This document shows, in pieces, positions 6,118 through 46,383 of a stretch of 64,000 nt of DNA (positions are counted from its first letter, which is position 1; each line of letters starts with the position of its first letter). A program made the translations under genes and the position numbers. The stretch covers positions 62,001 through 126,000 of the forward strand of contig NZ_ML133581.1 of the NCBI RefSeq assembly GCF_003985125.1, read 5' to 3'. A model generated the notes under the pieces. It ran no database searches, had not been told where the DNA came from, and was given only the letters and a program-made list of their open reading frames with translations. This stretch comes from Rhizobium phaseoli (GTDB lineage Bacteria > Pseudomonadota > Alphaproteobacteria > Rhizobiales > Rhizobiaceae).

Positions 6118-6597
6118 TTAGTTCAGGCCGGCCTTGTCGAGGCCATAGGCCTTGTCGGCTGAGCCGGGCACCGTCTTGAAGCCGACATTGACGCGGTTCC
6201 AGGCGTTGATCGCCATGACCACGAAGGTCAGGTCTGAGATTTCCTTTTCCGAAAGCTGGCCGCGAATCCGTTCATAGATCTCATCGGAAATGCCGCCTTC
6301 CGGCAGCTTCGTCAGGGCTTCGGTCCACGCAAGGGCGGCGCGCTCGCGGGGAACGAACAGGTTCGATTCCCGCCAGATGGCGACGTGATGGAGCCGCAAT
6401 TCGCTCTCGCCGAAGATTTTTGCCTGCTTCACATGCATGTCGAGGCAAAAGCCGCATCCGTTGATCTGCGAAGCGCGAATCTCGATGAGGGCCTGAAGCT
6501 TTTCGTCGATCACGCTGCTCTTCAGCGCCATGCTGAATTCCATGAATTTCTTGAAGAGCTCGGGGGACTGCTGGGCGTAATTCAGTCGCTGGGTCAT
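6118..6597 (-). CDS. Carboxymuconolactone decarboxylase / AhpD-like peroxidase
   Basis: 159 residues from the ATG at 6597, preceded by AAGGAG. The AhpD core motif is intact: E39 in ALIEIRAS, then GCGFCLDMH with C48, C51 and H55. Proteins of this type reduce alkyl hydroperoxides or regenerate peroxiredoxins in the cytoplasm. The promoter (TTTACA-N16-TATCTT on the minus strand) is overlapped by two GGATA-N5-TATCC-type dyads that match the one at the Rrf2 promoter, so Rrf2 repression is likely. A LysR gene is divergent and could also act here. Confidence 0.9.
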   Translation of the reverse strand: MTQRLNYAQQSPELFKKFMEFSMALKSSVIDEKLQALIEIRASQINGCGFCLDMHVKQAKIFGESELRLHHVAIWRESNLFVPRERAALAWTEALTKLPEGGISDEIYERIRGQLSEKEISDLTFVVMAINAWNRVNVGFKTVPGSADKAYGLDKAGLN

Positions 6598-38556: not shown

Positions 38557-39618
38557 ATGCCTAAGGCCGGAATTCTCACCTTCCATCGCTGCATAAATTA
38601 CGGGTCCTACTGGCAGGCACGCTGTCTGGTCGAAGGGCTCGCGTCCATGGGCGTAGAAGCCGTTCTTCTAGAACACATGTCCGATCGCGTGAATCGCGCG
38701 GAATGGCGGTGCGCGCTGCAACCGTTGCTTCCTGCCTCAACGCCGAAGGAAGACTACCCGCTCTACAAAGCGAAGATCCGCAAATTCTTTCACTCGTTTG
38801 CCAGCTTACCTCTTTCGTCGCCTTTTTCCTTGGAGAACCCAGCCGCAATGGACGACTATTCGCTCATAGTCGTTGGCAGTGACGAGGTGTGGAACCTTCG
38901 TCATCCCTGGTATGGCGGGTATCCGGTGTTTTATGGAGAGGGCCTGCGATGCGGGCGTCTTGTCTCCTATGCCGCGACGTTTGGAAGCCTGACATCGTCG
39001 GAGCGATTGGAGGGTTGGGCGGAAAAGCTACGAAAATTCTCTCATATTTCGGTCCGGGACCTCCATTCGGAGCAGATCATTCGCGAGACATTGGGACTGG
39101 AGCCCGAACTGGTTCTCGACCCGTGCCTGCAATTTCCCCAGACGATGAAGGCAAGCAGGGATGACGGGGAGGCGGCACCCTATATAGCCGTCTACGGGCA
39201 CAGTTTTCCCACATGGTTTCAGGATACCGTGCGCCGGTGGGCAGGAGACCGGGACTATCCGCTTGTCAGTATCGGCTATCGGAACGATTGGGCTGATGAG
39301 CAATGGATTGATGCCGGCCCGGAGGACTTCGCCAGCTTCATTTCCGAAGCAAAGGCTGTCGTGACGAACTTTTTCCATGGATGCGTGTTCTCGCTTGTCA
39401 ACGAGAAGCCGTTTGCATGTGTCCTCTCCGATTACCGCTCCAACAAGATTCGCGACCTGACGCGGCTCGTCCGAGCTGAACATCATGTTCTGACCGAAGA
39501 TACCACCCTCTCGCATCTGGATGGTATCCTCGGCAACCCGCTTCCTCCGGGTATTTCGCAGCGGATATCTTCGCTACGCGATACATCCAACGCCTATCTC
39601 AGCCATGCCTTGCAATAG
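38557..39618 (+). CDS. Polysaccharide pyruvyl transferase family protein
   Basis: 353 residues. The family landmarks are KAGILTFHRCINYGSYWQAR at the N-terminus, IVVGSDEVWNL, VSYAATFG, VRDLHSEQIIRE with VLDPCL, and the C-terminal AKAVVTNFFHGCVFSLVNEK. These enzymes add ketal pyruvate from PEP to sugars of surface polysaccharides. Composition looks less GC-biased than the flanking genes, suggesting transfer (by eye). It overlaps the next FrhB-like gene, a pairing often found in exopolysaccharide loci. Confidence 0.88.
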   Translation: MPKAGILTFHRCINYGSYWQARCLVEGLASMGVEAVLLEHMSDRVNRAEWRCALQPLLPASTPKEDYPLYKAKIRKFFHSFASLPLSSPFSLENPAAMDDYSLIVVGSDEVWNLRHPWYGGYPVFYGEGLRCGRLVSYAATFGSLTSSERLEGWAEKLRKFSHISVRDLHSEQIIRETLGLEPELVLDPCLQFPQTMKASRDDGEAAPYIAVYGHSFPTWFQDTVRRWAGDRDYPLVSIGYRNDWADEQWIDAGPEDFASFISEAKAVVTNFFHGCVFSLVNEKPFACVLSDYRSNKIRDLTRLVRAEHHVLTEDTTLSHLDGILGNPLPPGISQRISSLRDTSNAYLSHALQ

Positions 39619-41035
39619 CCCCGGTCAACAGAAACGGCTCACGCCGGGCATCGCTCCCAGCGATATTACAGGCTCCGGTTTCTGCATCGGCTGCGGCACC
39701 TGCGTCGCAAGGTCAGCGAGACCTGATGTGCACATGCAACTAGATCGCTACGGGCAGATGAAGCCGACCGGCCCGAAGACTTGGTTGCGGGGCCGCGATG
39801 AAGAGTTTGCCCGAATCTGCCCGTTTTCGCCGGTGGCTCGGGACGAGGACAAATTAGCGGCCGAGTATTTCTCCCACGCGAAAAACCGAGACTCTTTCTT
39901 GGGGCGCTACGAAGCTGCTTTTGTCGGCCATGTCGAGGAAGGCGGATTTCGTTCGAGCGGCAGTTCCGGCGGCATGGTCACCTGGGTGGCAGCGGAATTG
40001 CTGCGCCTCGGGCTTGTCGACGGTGTTGCTCACGTCAAGGCGAGCGATGATCCGCAATCGGAAGGGCGCCTGTTTCATTATTCGCTGTCACGTAACCTGC
40101 AGGATCTTCAGGCTGGCGCCAAATCCCGATATTACCCCGTCGAGCTTTCCGGAGTCCTTCAGCTCATTCGCGAGGCACCCGGCCGCTATGCCGTTGTTGG
40201 GATTCCCTGTTTCATCAAGGCGGTGCGACTGGCTTGTGCCGATGATCCGATTCTAAAGGAACGAATTGCGTTCACGCTTGGGTTGTTTTGCGGCCATATG
40301 AAAAGTGCACGCATGGCCGAGAGCTTCGCATGGCAGATGGGACAGGACATCGGGAAGGTTAAACGGCTCGACTACAGGAAGAAAGCCCATGATCGGCCTG
40401 CGAACTGGTATCGGGCTGAGCTGACACTCGAAAACGGAGAGACGTGTGCCCAAGACTGGTGGCATCTGGTCGATGGGGACTGGGGTGCGGGCTTTTTTCA
40501 GAACTCTGCCTGCAATTTCTGCGACGACATCGTTGCAGAAACGGCCGATATCGCTTTTGGGGATGCCTGGAAGGAGCCTTACTCCTCTGATGGAAGAGGA
40601 ACGAACGTGGTGATCATTCGCTCAACAGCACTTCTGGACATGATCGATGCGGGGATCGCTGAGAAGAGGATCGTGCTGTCTCATGTCGATTCCGACTTTG
40701 TCGTAGCTACCCAGGCTTCCGGATTCCGCCAGCGTCGCGAAGGTCTCGCATTCCGGCTGACCTGGCCTCGTATGGGTATGCGCCCGCGCAAGCGCGTCCG
40801 TGCAGGCAGCCATGGCCTGTCTCGGCAGCGCATGGGGGTCTACATCATGCGCAATTGGATCAGCTTCTGGAGTCATCGCGTCTTTTTGATCGCCGATTTG
40901 CTGCATAGCCCCAGACTTTACATTCTATGGGCTCGGGCGGCCTTGGCATGCTATCACGGGATCGCTTATTCCCGGGGGCCGATTGGCAGGATCGCCCAGC
41001 GCCTGGGCTTAGCCGGCTCCGAGGGGCGCGCGTGA
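39605..41035 (+). CDS. FrhB-like (F420 hydrogenase beta-type) Fe-S protein
   Basis: About 476 residues, starting at the ATG at 39605 inside the previous gene. A ferredoxin-like motif GFCIGCGTC (C27, C30, C33) with a later ICPF (C72) would bind one 4Fe-4S cluster. The FrhB/FdhB domains follow (SSGSSGGMVTWVAAELL, VVGIPCFIKAVRLAC, CNFCDDIVAETADIAFGDAW). Family members in polysaccharide clusters act as flavin/Fe-S reductases of unknown role; cofactor F420 is not implied. Its 3' end overlaps the convergent glycosidase gene by 27 bp. Confidence 0.85.
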   Translation: MPCNSPGQQKRLTPGIAPSDITGSGFCIGCGTCVARSARPDVHMQLDRYGQMKPTGPKTWLRGRDEEFARICPFSPVARDEDKLAAEYFSHAKNRDSFLGRYEAAFVGHVEEGGFRSSGSSGGMVTWVAAELLRLGLVDGVAHVKASDDPQSEGRLFHYSLSRNLQDLQAGAKSRYYPVELSGVLQLIREAPGRYAVVGIPCFIKAVRLACADDPILKERIAFTLGLFCGHMKSARMAESFAWQMGQDIGKVKRLDYRKKAHDRPANWYRAELTLENGETCAQDWWHLVDGDWGAGFFQNSACNFCDDIVAETADIAFGDAWKEPYSSDGRGTNVVIIRSTALLDMIDAGIAEKRIVLSHVDSDFVVATQASGFRQRREGLAFRLTWPRMGMRPRKRVRAGSHGLSRQRMGVYIMRNWISFWSHRVFLIADLLHSPRLYILWARAALACYHGIAYSRGPIGRIAQRLGLAGSEGRA

Positions 41036-41983
41036 TTCAAGCCCCAGCAGCCGGGCAGCTGACTTGCCAACGCGCGACACATATCCGCTATTCCTGCGCG
41101 GCGCATAGCGTTCGACCATTTCCTCGCAGAACCCGGCGAATTCTTCAGGCACCAGTGGCGCACTGGTATGGTGCGGCGCGATACCTCTATGCTCCGGCGT
41201 GAAGCAGAATGTCACCGTTACGTCGAAATCTTCGAGAGCCTGCATCTGTCGGTCGAACCAATCGAGGGCATTGGGCCGGAACCGATCCGCCCAGGAAAGC
41301 CCGGTGCGCACAGATTTCACGCCCAACCGCTTCATCCAGGCCGCGGCCTCATCCAGCCGCGGGTCTTCGAAATGAAACCATTGCACCAGCCCTAAGTCCG
41401 GCGTGTGTTTGGCAAACTCCTCAAGCGCTGGTTTGGGCGTTCCGTCTTCGCGCAGAATGCCCATATAGTAGTGCCGATAGTAGGAGGAGCCTTCGGCTTC
41501 GCGATGACGCGTCGTCGCCTCCCATGATCGGGGGAGGTCGTAGAGGCTGTACCATTGGCAGCGCTCGATTCTACCCTTGAGCAACTCGGCGGTTCGTTGC
41601 AGACCCCACAACTGCACTTCCTCCGCACCGAAGGTCGAGACACCCACTTCGCTGACCCAGATCGGCAGATCGGTGACAGCGCGGATTTCGTTGATTTTCT
41701 CCGGCCACTCATGAATCTGCCAGAGGTTCCAGTCGAGGGGGAAGCCATGCAGCGCGACGGCATCGAGGTGATCGAGCACGCCGTAATTTTTCATGCGGCT
41801 GATGAAGAAGGGGTCGATCGGCGATATTCCGCCGAGCACCTTCGTTAATTCCGGATTCCTGGCTGCGATGGCGTCGGCCGCGAGGATTGCCATTTGCGCA
41901 AACAGGCTCCATTCAGGATCGATCTCAGGATCCCAGTGCGATTTGTTGTTCGGCTCGTTCCAGATCATTGCAGCTTCGATCAT
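41009..41983 (-). CDS. Clan GH-A glycoside hydrolase with apparently permuted TIM barrel
   Basis: 324 residues from the ATG at 41983 (GGGGAAAT upstream); an ATG at 42010 adds nine residues. The acid/base motif AMIWNEPN (E10) is at the very N-terminus and the nucleophile motif IWVSEVG (E112) follows, as at strands 4 and 7 of clan GH-A enzymes of the GH5/GH39 kind. The region that normally comes first, LDEAAAWMKRLGVKSVRTGL, WADRFRP and DVTVTFCFTPEHRG (strands 1-3), is at the C-terminus (about 198-295). No signal peptide, so a cytoplasmic enzyme. It is probably in one operon with the histidine phosphatase (32 bp apart) and inositol-phosphate synthase. Substrate unknown; beta-xylosidase-type activity is one possibility. 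Confidence 0.8.
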   Translation of the reverse strand: MIEAAMIWNEPNNKSHWDPEIDPEWSLFAQMAILAADAIAARNPELTKVLGGISPIDPFFISRMKNYGVLDHLDAVALHGFPLDWNLWQIHEWPEKINEIRAVTDLPIWVSEVGVSTFGAEEVQLWGLQRTAELLKGRIERCQWYSLYDLPRSWEATTRHREAEGSSYYRHYYMGILREDGTPKPALEEFAKHTPDLGLVQWFHFEDPRLDEAAAWMKRLGVKSVRTGLSWADRFRPNALDWFDRQMQALEDFDVTVTFCFTPEHRGIAPHHTSAPLVPEEFAGFCEEMVERYAPRRNSGYVSRVGKSAARLLGLESRAPLGAG

Positions 41984-42015
41984 TTGATTTCCCCGGGGCA
42001 GGTTTAACAAACGGG

Positions 42016-42615
42016 TTATAAGGTCACTTCGTTGAGCGTCATCACTTTTGCACCCCAGTCGCCGATCACGATTGTCGTGACGGAGGCGGGCGCAATATCA
42101 AATCTGGGCCAAGCGTCGATCGGCAGTCCCAGAACATGACAAACCGCCGACTTGATGACATCGGCATGAGACACAAGCGCTATTCGCCTGTCGTTACCGA
42201 CGCTGGTCAAAGTCTCCATCAGGCCGAAGATCCGTGTCTGGACGTCCAACATCGTCTCGCCCCCTGGCGTGCGGGCGAGGCTGCGCGTGGTATTCCAGCG
42301 GCGCCACAGGGGATCGTCATTGAGAACTTCAAACGTCTTGCCGGACCAGTTGCCGAAATTCACCTCGTCCAAGGCATCGTCTGTTTGCGGCAGAGACAGG
42401 TCGCAGGCCGACGCTATACCGACTGCCGTCTCCCGTGTCCGTTCGCGCGGGCTGGTGTAAATCGCATTGATCTCCTCGCGTCGCAGCCTCTGCGCGAGAC
42501 GCTGAACCTGTGAGCGGCCGGCGTCGCCAAGCGAAATCCCGGCTGTCCGACCCGCCAGGAAAGTGCCGACATTATCATGCGCGGCGTGACGTATCAGGAA
42601 GAACGTCGCCGTCAT
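42016..42615 (-). CDS. Histidine phosphatase superfamily protein
   Basis: 199 residues. The phosphohistidine motif is [10 protein letters not shown] (R9, H10), the second Arg in [12 protein letters not shown], the acid in [11 protein letters not shown] and the second His in IALVSHADV. Resembles phosphoglycerate-mutase-like phosphatases. It overlaps the inositol-phosphate synthase gene by 4 bases, so a natural guess is dephosphorylation of inositol phosphate or of a derivative, in place of an IMPase. Confidence 0.88.
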
Positions 42616-43715
42616 TCCGCGGCTCCGCGCAGAACATCTTCCTGGTCATCGATGAAACTTTGCGTTCGACGGCGGGCCTCATGATCGGTGAATTGTTGCG
42701 GCGGCGATTTCATGAAATAGCTCGACGGCCCGGTCAGGGCTCCGCCCAGGCCTCTGTCAAGCGCCAGCTTCGCGCAGCGTATCGCATCGATCACCACGCC
42801 GGCGGAGTTGGGGGAGTCCCACACCTCGAGCTTGAGCTCTGCATTGAGCGGCACGCCTCCGAAAGTCGTACCCTCGAGACGAATATAGGCCCATTTCCGA
42901 TCGGTGAGCCACGGGACGTGGTCACTTGGCCCGACATGAATATCGTCCGCAGGAAGCGGAATATCCAATTGGCTGGTGACCGACTGGGTCTTGGATATTT
43001 TCTTCGATTCCAGCCGCTCGCGCTCTAGCATATTGAGAAAATCGGTGTTTCCGCCAAAATTGAGCTGATAGGTGCGATCCACACGCACGCCCCGTTCGCG
43101 GAAGAGATTGACCAGCATTCTGTGGACGATCGTTGCCCCCACCTGGCTTTTGATATCGTCGCCGATGAGCGGCAGCTTGCGGGCAGCAAACTTCTGCTGC
43201 CATTCCGGTTTGGAGGCTATGAATACCGGAATGCAATTGATGAAGGCGCAACCAGCCGCCAGCGCCTGTTCGGCGTACCACTTCGTTGCCTGTTCCGAGC
43301 CGACGGGAAGATAGGAAACCAGCACTTCCGTCCGGGTTTTCCTAAGGATTTCCGCCACATCCGCTGAAGGCTCCGTCGATTCCTCGATCCGATCTTGAAG
43401 ATACTTGCCTATCCCATCCAACGTCCTGCCGCGTTTCACCTCGACCCCGATCGGTGCGACATCTGCAAAACGTTGAGTGTTGTTTGGCTCGGCGTAAATC
43501 GCTTCCGCGACATCACGCCCGACCTTTGAAGCCGCGACATCGAAGGCGGAGGATATCGCAATGTCGTGCACGTGATATCCACCGAGGTCAATGTGCATGA
43601 GGCCTGGAACCGGCTCGTTTTCCCGAGCGTTATCATAGTAGGTAAGTCCTTGAACCAATGACGAGGCGCAATTGCCAACTCCCACCAATCCAACGCGAAT
43701 GGATTTTGAACGCAT
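42612..43715 (-). CDS. ino1: Myo-inositol-1-phosphate synthase
   Basis: 367 residues, actinobacterial-type INO1. NAD-binding [17 protein letters not shown], then [20 protein letters not shown], the catalytic region [16 protein letters not shown] and [13 protein letters not shown]. It converts glucose-6-phosphate to L-myo-inositol-1-phosphate. Rhizobia usually catabolise inositol, and de novo synthesis is uncommon, so the gene suggests a special product. It is first in the probable operon ino1-phosphatase-glycosidase. Confidence 0.93.
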
Positions 43716-43861: not shown

Positions 43862-45610
43862 ATGCTCGTCTATGGTGATGTCGAGCACATCGAGAGCGCG
43901 GCAGCAGTACGCGCATCCATTTCAAGCATGATGATGGCATGCATCGAAATGCAGCCCAGCCGCCAGCGCCACGAAATCCTGGTTCGAGCCTTCATCCTGA
44001 CTGGAGAACTGGTCCAGGGATTGGCCGATCAGGAGTTTGCAAGCAAAGGCGCCGACGACCTGTCCGAGCTTCAGGACGCTGGCGCGAAACTTCTGCTCAT
44101 ACAAGCACGCGCCATTATGCAATCATGGCGAAACGGGTTTGCCGGTATTTTGTCCTTTCCGGATGATTGGGCAGCCGAGCTTGAGTCTCTAGACAGCGTC
44201 GATCCGGTGCGGATGAAGCGTGCAGAGGGTTACGCCTTTTATGCCTTGTATCCCGAGAGCTATATCGAGGCGGCTTCGATCTCAAATCTGACGCCTAGAA
44301 CAGTTGTGATAGGAATAAGAAGCATCGGGACCGGACTTGCTGCCCTGGTTTCCGCAGCCTTGGGTGCCGAGCCTGCCTATTCGCTGCGGCCAACTGGCCA
44401 CCCCTTCCAGCGGCAGCTGCACGTCACACCGGCTCTTTCCGAGCGCATTCTTGCGGAGCCTGAAACCGATTTTGCCATCGTCGATGAAGGGCCGGGGCTG
44501 TCGGGGAGTTCGTTCGGCTGCGTTGGGGATTGGCTGCAGGCAAACGGTGTGACATCTGGTCGACTTCATTTTTTTCCGAGCCACGCAGGTGAACCGGGCC
44601 CCCATGCAAGCGAGCCGCATCGGACCCGTTGGCGAGATCGGCCACGCCATGTCGTCAGCTTCGACGATCTAATGCTCAAGGCCAAAGACCCAAGACGTCG
44701 TCTGCACACATGGGCGGCCGATGCTGTCGGAGTTGCACGATCCTCGTGGCGGGACCTGTCCGGTGGTGCATGGCGAGCTGTTCGTTATCGCGATCCGTCA
44801 CTTTGGCCGCCGAGCTATATGCAGATGGAAAAACGCAAATTCCTGATGGAAGCCGAAGGAGGGGCCTGGCATGTCAAGTTTGCCGGGCTTTGCGGGAGCG
44901 ACGTGGACAAGGCAAGAAGAGGCTCTTTGCTGAGAGAAGCCGGCTTTATTCCGAAGATTGCCGGCACTTGTTACGGATTTATCATCGAGGAATGGCTGGA
45001 TGGAACACCCTTCGACACTAGCGGTCTGAGCAGGCGCCACATCGTGGATCACCTCGGACGTTACCTCGGTTTTCGCGCCCGTCACCTCCCGGCACGAAAC
45101 GGCGGCGCCTCGATCCAGAAACTTTGCGAAATGGCTGTTTTCAATATCGCCGAAGCGGCAGGATCGGATACAGCAGGAAATTTGAGGCGGGTGATAGGTG
45201 CGCCCGAGCGGCTATCACGGCGATTGCGACGCGTCGATACGGATAATCGTCTTCATCCATGGGAATGGCTGACCGCCACGACCGGGCGCATCATGAAGAC
45301 GGATGCGCTCGACCATAATGCGGCCCATGATCTGATCGGCTGCCAGGATATCGCCTGGGACGTCGCGGGCGCCTGTGTGGAATTCCAACTCTCGAGCAAG
45401 GAGCGCGATCGTCTTGCCGATCTCGTCGGTCGGGAAGCGGACTGCGATTTGCGCGACGATGTACTCAGGTTTTTCGAGGCATGTTATCTCGGTTTCCAGA
45501 TAGGTCTGTGGTCGCAGGCGAAAGCCTGCGTCGATTGCGCCGAGATGGAGCGCATCGAAAGCACCATCAAACGTTACCTGGATCGCTTGCCGGGATTGGT
45601 TCGACCCTGA
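43862..45610 (+). CDS. Phosphoribosyltransferase-like plus kinase-like two-part protein
   Basis: 582 residues from the ATG at 43862, which has AGGGAGGAGTGG upstream; a longer frame would run into ino1. The first half has RTVVIGIRSIGTGLAALVSA (148-167) and FAIVDEGPGLSGSSFG (204-219), like the strand and PRPP loop of type I phosphoribosyltransferases (Asp-Glu followed by a Gly/Ser loop). The second half has KFLMEAEGGAWHVKFAGLCG (about 327-345), a hinge-like GFIIEEWLDG (372-381) and HNAAHDLIGCQDIAWDVAGA (485-504). These recall the Lys strand, hinge and HxD/DxD parts of aminoglycoside-phosphotransferase-like kinases. I do not recognise the whole protein. It is divergent from ino1 by about 150 bp and probably works in the same pathway. 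Confidence 0.65.
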   Translation: MLVYGDVEHIESAAAVRASISSMMMACIEMQPSRQRHEILVRAFILTGELVQGLADQEFASKGADDLSELQDAGAKLLLIQARAIMQSWRNGFAGILSFPDDWAAELESLDSVDPVRMKRAEGYAFYALYPESYIEAASISNLTPRTVVIGIRSIGTGLAALVSAALGAEPAYSLRPTGHPFQRQLHVTPALSERILAEPETDFAIVDEGPGLSGSSFGCVGDWLQANGVTSGRLHFFPSHAGEPGPHASEPHRTRWRDRPRHVVSFDDLMLKAKDPRRRLHTWAADAVGVARSSWRDLSGGAWRAVRYRDPSLWPPSYMQMEKRKFLMEAEGGAWHVKFAGLCGSDVDKARRGSLLREAGFIPKIAGTCYGFIIEEWLDGTPFDTSGLSRRHIVDHLGRYLGFRARHLPARNGGASIQKLCEMAVFNIAEAAGSDTAGNLRRVIGAPERLSRRLRRVDTDNRLHPWEWLTATTGRIMKTDALDHNAAHDLIGCQDIAWDVAGACVEFQLSSKERDRLADLVGREADCDLRDDVLRFFEACYLGFQIGLWSQAKACVDCAEMERIESTIKRYLDRLPGLVRP

Positions 45611-45636: not shown

Positions 45637-46383
45637 CTATTGGCAAAGTGATGGAGGCGGTTCCGCCATCTGGTGGCGGGTTCCATGTTCTACCAGATAA
45701 ACTTCCGGTTCCGGATTGGCACGAATGACAAACCCGGCGCTTCTTAGCATCGCTTCGACCGCCGCCTTGTTCGGAATGAACCAGTTGGTGGGGTCGCCAG
45801 CGTAACGTTCTTCCACAAAATAAAGCTTCGGAAAGCCGCGCTGCTCAAATATCGCCGTGTCGGAGAAATCGTAATTTTTGCTGAGCGCCGCGACTTGCTC
45901 TTCACCTCGCTGCATGCATTGAAACAGCATCTTTCCACCAACGACATGCTCATGCAGAAGGTCGAGCGCCAGTAGCGGATGCCGCAGGTGATAAAGGACA
46001 CCCATGAAAAGGACCAGGTCGAATTTCTCCTTGAGTTTTTCAACCTCATAGACCGACATCAGCTTGAACTCGATATCCTCACCTGTCTGTGTGGCTGCGA
46101 ACTCGGCTTGCCGGAGATAATGGGGGTCGGAATCGATTCCGACGACCCGCCCGGCATTTCTTCTCTTCATTTCAAGCGAGTAGAACCCGGCGTTGCAGCC
46201 GATGTCCAGAACGCTGCACCCGCGGAGATCTTCAGGCACAACCTGCTGAAAGTGGGCCCATTTGAAGGACGGGTAGTCGCCAAGGAAATGATCGGGCGCG
46301 GTCTGAACGCCGTTAATTCGCAGATTGTGAAACCATGGGCCCAGGGCTGCGATGTCGCTTTCCAGTCGAGCCTTCTCGTTCAT
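45637..46383 (-). CDS. SAM-dependent methyltransferase, CmoB-like group
   Basis: 248 residues. SAM motif CSVLDIGCNAGFYSLEMKRR, acidic VVGIDSDPHYLRQAEFA, and FDLVLFMGVLYHLRHPLLAL. The N-terminal GPWFHNLRINGVQTAPDHFL is as in the CmoB/TIGR04290-like group, from memory. Such methyltransferases occur in sugar or surface-polymer gene cassettes of undefined function. Start at the ATG at 46383 with GGAGTAGGG. It is convergent with the two-part protein. Its substrate may be the product of this cluster. Confidence 0.88.
   Translation of the reverse strand: MNEKARLESDIAALGPWFHNLRINGVQTAPDHFLGDYPSFKWAHFQQVVPEDLRGCSVLDIGCNAGFYSLEMKRRNAGRVVGIDSDPHYLRQAEFAATQTGEDIEFKLMSVYEVEKLKEKFDLVLFMGVLYHLRHPLLALDLLHEHVVGGKMLFQCMQRGEEQVAALSKNYDFSDTAIFEQRGFPKLYFVEERYAGDPTNWFIPNKAAVEAMLRSAGFVIRANPEPEVYLVEHGTRHQMAEPPPSLCQ

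Follow-up and report, generated by a model that had tools for sequence, protein, structure and literature searches.

The hydrolase gene and its start codon

The window analysed here is a stretch of 64,000 nucleotides from Rhizobium phaseoli (assembly GCF_003985125.1, contig NZ_ML133581.1, positions 62,001 to 126,000 of the forward strand). The gene of interest within it, at 41009..41983 on the minus strand, encodes a protein of 324 amino acids which we take, with a probability of about 0.93, to be a clan GH-A-type glycoside hydrolase whose barrel is circularly permuted into the strand order 4-5-6-7-8-1-2-3, with E10 and E112 as its catalytic residues. Several relatives are annotated as 'beta-xylosidase' or 'glycosyl hydrolase'. 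The original prediction, which had proposed such a permutation from the letters of the sequence, gave the coordinates correctly and left the strand unstated. The open reading frame (ORF) begins with an ATG at 41981-41983 and runs for 324 codons, and the plus-strand frame over the same interval contains five stops. A ribosome-binding-site-like GGGGA (41990..41994, minus strand), read directly from the sequence, lies ahead of this ATG. The ORF of an upstream histidine phosphatase ends at 42016, leaving the predicted gap of 5 base pairs (bp) to the longest possible hydrolase start, a TTG at 42010.

The permuted set comprises 106 rows, which represent 100 distinct proteins and include the window copy and doubles of some genomes. 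Among pattern-matching stretches in genome contigs, 451 of 457 encode a relative; the best 80 were examined for strand order and context, with 14 partner proteins sought in these 80 related loci. The ATG at 41983 is a more likely start than the TTG at 42010, because the aligned codon is a start codon in every permuted row (ATG in 104, TTG in one and GTG in one). No in-frame start lies between this codon and the preceding stop in 58 of the rows (47 of the 80 genome loci), and in six rows a stop stands directly ahead of the aligned start or one codon away. Five further permuted copies beyond the 106 rows, on plasmids of Azospirillum, Roseomonas, Paracoccus, Sphingobium and Bradyrhizobium, are annotated as single genes, and all five records put the gene start at the same place. 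The nearest upstream neighbour among the partners sought is a methyltransferase in 45 loci, the phosphatase in 31 and a nucleotidyltransferase in four, and the upstream methyltransferase overlaps the hydrolase start by 4 or 8 nucleotides in 44 of its 45 loci. A strand 1-3 piece that is missing, or encoded separately upstream, is very unlikely, since the start codon is kept, the upstream genes differ and the plasmid starts are annotated at the same position. The original prediction had ruled out a lost N-terminus as the cause of the unusual order, and this stands, with a start codon at the same place in all 106 rows behind differing upstream genes. Row starts were set by the match to window residue 1, so that a WNEPN motif near every row start is partly by construction, and the start-codon check is the test of the N-terminus that counts.

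The frame is a coding one, and the gene is under purifying selection. Over codons 1-180, compared with 80 relatives, 20, 14 and 67% of the differences fall at codon positions 1, 2 and 3 (1926, 1372 and 6564 differences over the 80 loci). On one contig (G041:C3, loci L092 and L101) the permuted gene is split by the contig ends, with residues 1-257 at one end and 258-304 at the opposite one; this looks like an artefact of contig assembly, not a gene that is truly divided.

Strand order, predicted catalytic residues and predicted fold

As judged from sequence, the decisive evidence for the swapped order is a normal-order relative in the same genome. This gene (L102:8093-10135) lies on another contig and encodes a fusion of 680 amino acids, in which a barrel is joined to an NAD-epimerase. 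In a one-sequence blastp comparison, residues 7-184 of the window hydrolase pair with residues 124-299 of the relative (E-value (E) 1e-23), and residues 192-294 pair with its residues 12-116 (E 1e-8). A control profile built from 17 normal-order relatives gives the same picture, the natural-order window protein being matched in two pieces, residues 5-184 on profile positions 123-300 (105.0 bits) and residues 192-294 on 13-117 (37.3 bits). Of 99 rotations tested, those at residues 186-195 score best, each with a single unbroken match of 153-155 bits that runs from profile position 13-18 to 300, and 200 composition shuffles reach a maximum of 9.2 bits. The swapped order is found in all 106 permuted rows, and in each of them the rotated sequence scores above the natural one (median 158.5 versus 105.35 bits). 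The swapped order, its conservation and the homology of both halves to normal-order relatives are established by these alignments, and the order 4-5-6-7-8-1-2-3 is borne out as a real permutation. The usual order in clan GH-A, which is usual and not strictly defining, is 1 to 8; here it is 4-8 followed by 1-3.

By the profile match, residues 1-190 (41414..41983, minus strand) would carry strands 4-8 with their helices and both the acid/base and the nucleophile, and correspond to the C-terminal part of a normal-order barrel. Residues 191-296 (41096..41413, minus strand) would supply strands 1-3 with helices 1-3, and correspond to its N-terminal part. A variable, low-confidence tail completes the protein (residues 297-324; 41012..41095, minus strand; predicted local distance difference test (pLDDT) below 50 at 299-324). 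Between the permuted and normal-order rows the median identity is 32%, and 56 columns hold the same residue in at least 90% of each group (30 rotated permuted rows, thinned as for the tree below, and the 17 normal-order rows, leaving out a Xanthomonas row and eight outgroup rows). These shared columns are drawn from all parts of the barrel and include E10, E112, N9, H79, W144, Y145 and R226.

A single-sequence search of the PDB set up to E 10 matches PslG alone, in two sequences (E 0.0037), with residues 3-193 aligned on chain positions 132-331. A profile of 54 relatives extends over a similar range (residues 4-192 on 133-330; 17.4 bits, E 1e-4). The C-terminal segment also has weak matches to beta-glucosidases (E 0.038-0.35), which fall in the N-terminal parts of these enzymes. 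Other weak PDB matches, to a prion chain and to an antibody heavy chain, were taken as chance. The catalytic pair of PslG is Glu165 as acid/base and Glu276 as nucleophile (PMC11912335). E10 (41954..41956, minus strand), in WNEPN where strand 4 ends, is the predicted acid/base and falls on PslG chain position 139, which is taken to be Glu165. E112 (41648..41650, minus strand), the predicted nucleophile in WVSEVG at the end of strand 7, aligns with chain position 250, taken as Glu276. The two chain positions are 111 apart, the same as the published pair. Both glutamates are invariant in the 54 proteins, as are the residues around them. Clan GH-A enzymes have an acid/base Glu after an Asn at the end of strand 4 and a nucleophile Glu at the end of strand 7; in the model described below, N9-E10 follow a predicted strand at 2-8 and E112 falls in the closing part of a predicted strand at 108-113. 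Counted from the ATG, WNEPN occupies residues 8-12, E112 lies in IWVSEVG and the segments GVKSVRTGLSWADRF and DVTVTFCFTPEHRG are located C-terminally, all as first described. We infer catalysis by the hydrolase, which would be a retaining beta-glycosidase using the two-step mechanism of GH-A. Curated libraries add little, with a single Pfam match (Glyco_hydro_cc, E 0.0042) below the cutoff and no NCBIfam match, so that neither gives a match above cutoff.

Structure prediction, which had been proposed as a check, was carried out with AlphaFold2 from the 54-sequence alignment and gave a model (pLDDT 79.7, predicted template modelling score (pTM) 0.80) with eight strands alternating with helices, as in the (beta/alpha)8 catalytic domain of clan GH-A. 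The predicted strands (2-8, 47-53, 75-79, 108-113, 141-145, 197-200, 224-230 and 254-260, with a helix at 279-293 after the last) may be read as strands 4-8 and then 1-3. The C-terminal segment had been expected to form strands 1-3 of the same barrel; its match to residues 12-116 of the normal-order relative and the last three model strands agree with this. VIA-align 2 places the model on known (beta/alpha)8 barrels from residue 1 to residue 298 (best Z 14.4, 3.5 Å, 245 residues), which implies that the first and last strands are neighbours, and a closed barrel is predicted. The homology of both halves stands in here for an order-independent superposition. Foldseek and VIA-align 2 were also considered for the choice of family, and returned a mixture of TIM barrels matched in ordinary sequence order (among them GH20, GH84, sugar epimerases and one GH5 at Z 12.7). 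They are useless for this purpose because of ties within 1 Z unit and the rotational symmetry of the barrel, and the family assignment therefore depends on sequence. PslG and GH39 are absent among the structural matches listed, which is no evidence against either. The chain would start at strand 4 and run through 4-5-6-7-8, cross from helix 8 to strand 1 by a short linker at about residues 190-196, and end after helix 3 with the variable tail. Folding would set the first strand (4) beside the last (3), so that both catalytic glutamates keep their usual places.

Relatives, distribution and gene neighbourhood

Normal-order relatives are found on plasmids of Rhizobium, Agrobacterium, Geminicoccaceae and Xanthomonas, and the one in the same genome as the window is 99.7% identical to plasmid copies of Rhizobium phaseoli and R. 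etli CIAT 652. The fusion and the permuted hydrolase share the same catalytic barrel, by the identity and shared columns given above, and their clusters share the same TIGR04290 methyltransferase family and homologous epimerases. They differ in that the fusion has strand order 1-8 with its barrel in front of the epimerase, whereas in six permuted plasmid loci the epimerase is a free gene and the barrel a separate, permuted one; the free-standing epimerase is 56-68% identical to the epimerase half of the fusion. Two genomes (G059 and G001) carry a normal-order gene and a permuted one at distances of about 15 and 18 kilobases. From this we infer related roles for the two barrels in pathways of one kind. 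The fusion itself belongs to a second glycan-type cluster (L102:4782-16373) with glycosyltransferase-like genes, a UDP-glucuronate-decarboxylase-like gene and a TIGR04290 methyltransferase, and the R. etli p42b counterpart of this cluster has four annotated glycosyltransferases.

A search of homologues for the order of the strands had also been suggested, and the permuted order was found in all 106 rows (100 distinct proteins) and in the five plasmid copies. The permuted form occurs in four alphaproteobacterial orders, named in the records as Hyphomicrobiales, Rhodospirillales, Rhodobacterales and Sphingomonadales. Permuted copies are present in 10 of 100 near relatives, in 8 of 385 genomes sampled from the class and in 12 of 398 sampled from the phylum, all 12 within the class; each count includes the window's own genome. 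The closest named relatives, at 94-97% identity, are from Rhizobium esperanzae, sophoriradicis, lentis and aethiopicum; with the plasmid copies of the normal-order gene mentioned above, they probably place the window in the Rhizobium etli/phaseoli group. For a tree of 56 rows, the 106 rows and five plasmid copies (111) were thinned to 30 permuted rows. These fall on one side of a branch with support 94/92, the normal-order relatives fall on another branch (100/99), and eight remote rows lie outside, each matched by the normal-order profile in one piece, some only in part. For Xanthomonas the row begins at the annotated start and so is without part of strands 1-2. In that Xanthomonas sacchari plasmid copy (L176:6001-6899) the annotated start lies inside the barrel, and two pieces meet near 6204, apparently in different frames, which is apparently a frameshift or sequencing error. 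The simplest reading of the tree is a single permutation event. A tblastn search of the flanks of the permuted genes with the normal-order barrel as query (E up to 1e-3) gave no residual copy of strands 1-3 or 4-8, and no half-copies or duplication-fusion intermediates were seen in the loci examined.

Upstream of the permuted gene on the minus strand are the histidine phosphatase (42016..42615), present in 80 of the 80 loci, and an inositol-3-phosphate synthase (INO1; 42612..43715), matched by the mycothiol-type INO1 model below its cutoff and present in 77. Further upstream is a TIGR04290 family methyltransferase (45637..46383, minus strand; 56 loci), which is the methyltransferase counted above as nearest upstream partner in 45 of the 80. 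Between these two, on the plus strand, lies a gene for a conserved protein without a Pfam or NCBIfam match (43862..45610; 57 loci). Its product of 582 amino acids (model pLDDT 89.8) has a choline/aminoglycoside-kinase fold at the C-terminus, where about residues 266-582 resemble LicA (Z 18.2, 4.5 Å, 255 residues). On the other side, an FrhB/FdhB-domain gene (39521..41035, plus strand; 36 loci) converges on the hydrolase gene, the 3' ends of the two overlapping by 27 bp, and is preceded by a gene for a polysaccharide pyruvyl transferase family protein (38557..39618, plus strand; 34 loci). Other partners are a glycosyltransferase (38 loci) and a nucleotidyltransferase (35 loci).

In each of the six plasmid loci with annotation, two NAD-epimerase genes accompany the permuted gene, and in most of them glycosyltransferases and the methyltransferase are listed too. 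Among the genes annotated nearby in these six records, whose tables are incomplete, there is no sugar transporter or other glycosidase, and one potassium channel. A TIGR04295 radical SAM protein is annotated in the Azospirillum and Bradyrhizobium loci, the latter also recognised by a model match. An INO1 gene on plasmid p_2 of Sinorhizobium meliloti RCAM1750 (L170:7230-8330) was detected by tblastn and has no row in the incomplete plasmid gene table. In a Mesorhizobium locus (L044:3335-12088) the permuted hydrolase is accompanied by INO1, a PIG-L-type deacetylase, a GT4 glycosyltransferase with weak MshA similarity, a GNAT-type transferase, a methyltransferase and an ECF/PhyR-type sigma factor, a set reminiscent of a glucosaminyl-inositol (mycothiol-like) route under stress control. 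A pathway product containing inositol and modified sugars is likely. The adjoining inositol-phosphate synthase, phosphatase, methyltransferase, sugar epimerases and glycosyltransferases, and the lack of a signal peptide as judged by eye, may point to a cytosolic biosynthetic role for the hydrolase. We would put at slightly less than even chances that it helps there to make or edit an oligosaccharide derived from inositol or nucleotide sugars, and that its task resembles that of the epimerase-fused normal-order domain.

Alternative explanations and known permuted barrels

Several observations weigh against a permuted GH-A barrel with these catalytic residues. The strand 1-3 half is the weaker match to the normal-order profile (37 versus 105 bits). 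Against PslG it scores -2.0 bits as a single sequence (residues 201-236 on chain 26-60), which is meaningless alone, and 6.3 bits with the profile (residues 200-295 on 25-130), which is not significant alone. The likeness to PslG is remote (E 0.0037 for the single sequence, 1e-4 for the profile), and membership of family GH39 is not established. Support for the permuted branch lies just below the threshold of 95, and the normal-order groups are placed with less certainty because of long branches. The sequential matches from Foldseek are poor among the 50 listed (template modelling score about 0.2-0.5), as would be expected for a rotated barrel, yet this is no proof. Model confidence is low at residues 11-15, beside the acid/base, and at 156-166. 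Lastly, in 48 of the 106 rows (33 of the 80 loci) the frame is open further back with possible upstream starts, and by the frame alone a longer start is permitted in those 33 loci.

The best-surviving alternative takes the annotation at its word: the enzyme would be a common beta-xylosidase of the degradative kind, and its permutation incidental. Records from Sinorhizobium, Azospirillum, Roseomonas and Bradyrhizobium carry that name, which is a database name only, and the catalytic pair is GH39-like. However, no curated family model (Pfam or NCBIfam) backs a xylosidase specificity, and the genomic setting speaks against this reading, with the histidine phosphatase and inositol-phosphate synthase nearly always at hand, sugar epimerases, glycosyltransferases and a methyltransferase in the plasmid loci, and neither a sugar transporter nor another glycosidase annotated near the hydrolase in the six incomplete records; we regard it as unlikely. 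A second possibility is that the C-terminal segment forms a separate domain, the N-terminal part being an incomplete barrel to which a second protein or a swapped dimer would add what is missing. Some GH-A enzymes tolerate a cut barrel, for example processed heparanase, and the monomer prediction is compatible with domain swapping. The C-terminal half is, however, homologous to normal-order strands 1-3 with the expected position and length, and the model is a single barrel with a short linker, which makes this explanation highly improbable. A rearranged or truncated pseudogene of a normal-order glycosidase, which the original prediction had named as a way to be wrong, can draw on the normal-order homologue in the same genome and on three members with stops inside the aligned stretch (G017, G583 and G424), yet the predicted proteins of these three (296, 310 and 311 amino acids) still contain the core, and the conserved permuted order with its shared start codon, the invariant catalytic and surrounding residues, the concentration of differences at third codon positions, the short overlaps with the upstream methyltransferase and the lack of leftover half-copies already contradict it to the point where its probability is negligible.

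For the permuted GH-A hydrolase favoured here, the coexistence of permuted and normal forms in one genome, at 32% identity and with matching catalytic sites, offers a direct test of a barrel that has been cut and rejoined, and also of a possible preference for cuts in the strand 3/4 region. It also indicates that profile annotation can miss permuted proteins, as no match rises above the cutoff here and several records say 'beta-xylosidase'. To our knowledge, natural circular permutations of catalytic (beta/alpha)8 barrels are rare, and the window hydrolase may be the first permuted GH-A barrel. The fuller proposal, of a first natural GH-A permutation that reached the GH70 order independently and set free a barrel that in sister clusters stays fused ahead of an NAD-epimerase, with the permuted enzyme serving Alphaproteobacteria in the cytosol, as a trans- or editing glycosidase for inositol-linked oligosaccharides, is tentative and somewhat doubtful as a whole.

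In the literature searched, which leaves out most subscription papers, nothing was found on a permuted GH-A barrel or on this gene cluster. Candidate earlier reports proved to concern other proteins in the parts available, namely the PgaB esterase domain (PMC10967932) and NlpC/P60 enzymes (PMC6403190), while PMC12137362 and PMC4981690 merely cite papers on other proteins. The carbohydrate esterase 4 domain of PgaB is likewise a carbohydrate-active barrel described as circularly permuted (PMC13366581), but it is a 7-fold deacetylase barrel and no glycosidase. PslG of Pseudomonas aeruginosa, a retaining endo-beta-glucosidase of GH39, resembles the window hydrolase in its aligned pair of catalytic glutamates and in being a glycosidase encoded inside a polysaccharide synthesis cluster (PMC11912335); it differs in its normal strand order and an extra C-terminal beta-sandwich (PMC6933502), besides the remoteness of the similarity. 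The natural permutation of a glycosidase barrel documented here from the literature is that of the GH70 glucansucrases. Relative to GH13, their order is N-alpha3-beta4 ... beta8-alpha8-beta1-alpha1-beta2-alpha2-beta3-C, which makes their strand order, 4-5-6-7-8-1-2-3, identical to the one seen here (PMC11046441). Helix 3 comes first in GH70, whereas the window hydrolase has helix 3 at its C-terminus and is cut one element further on. The clan and catalytic residues also differ, since GH13 and GH70 share a triad of two Asp and one Glu (PMC6274110), and the hydrolase has two GH-A-type glutamates in place of that triad, with no GH70 model among its Pfam matches up to E 1. The permutations of GH70 and of the window hydrolase are the same kind of event in an unrelated place.

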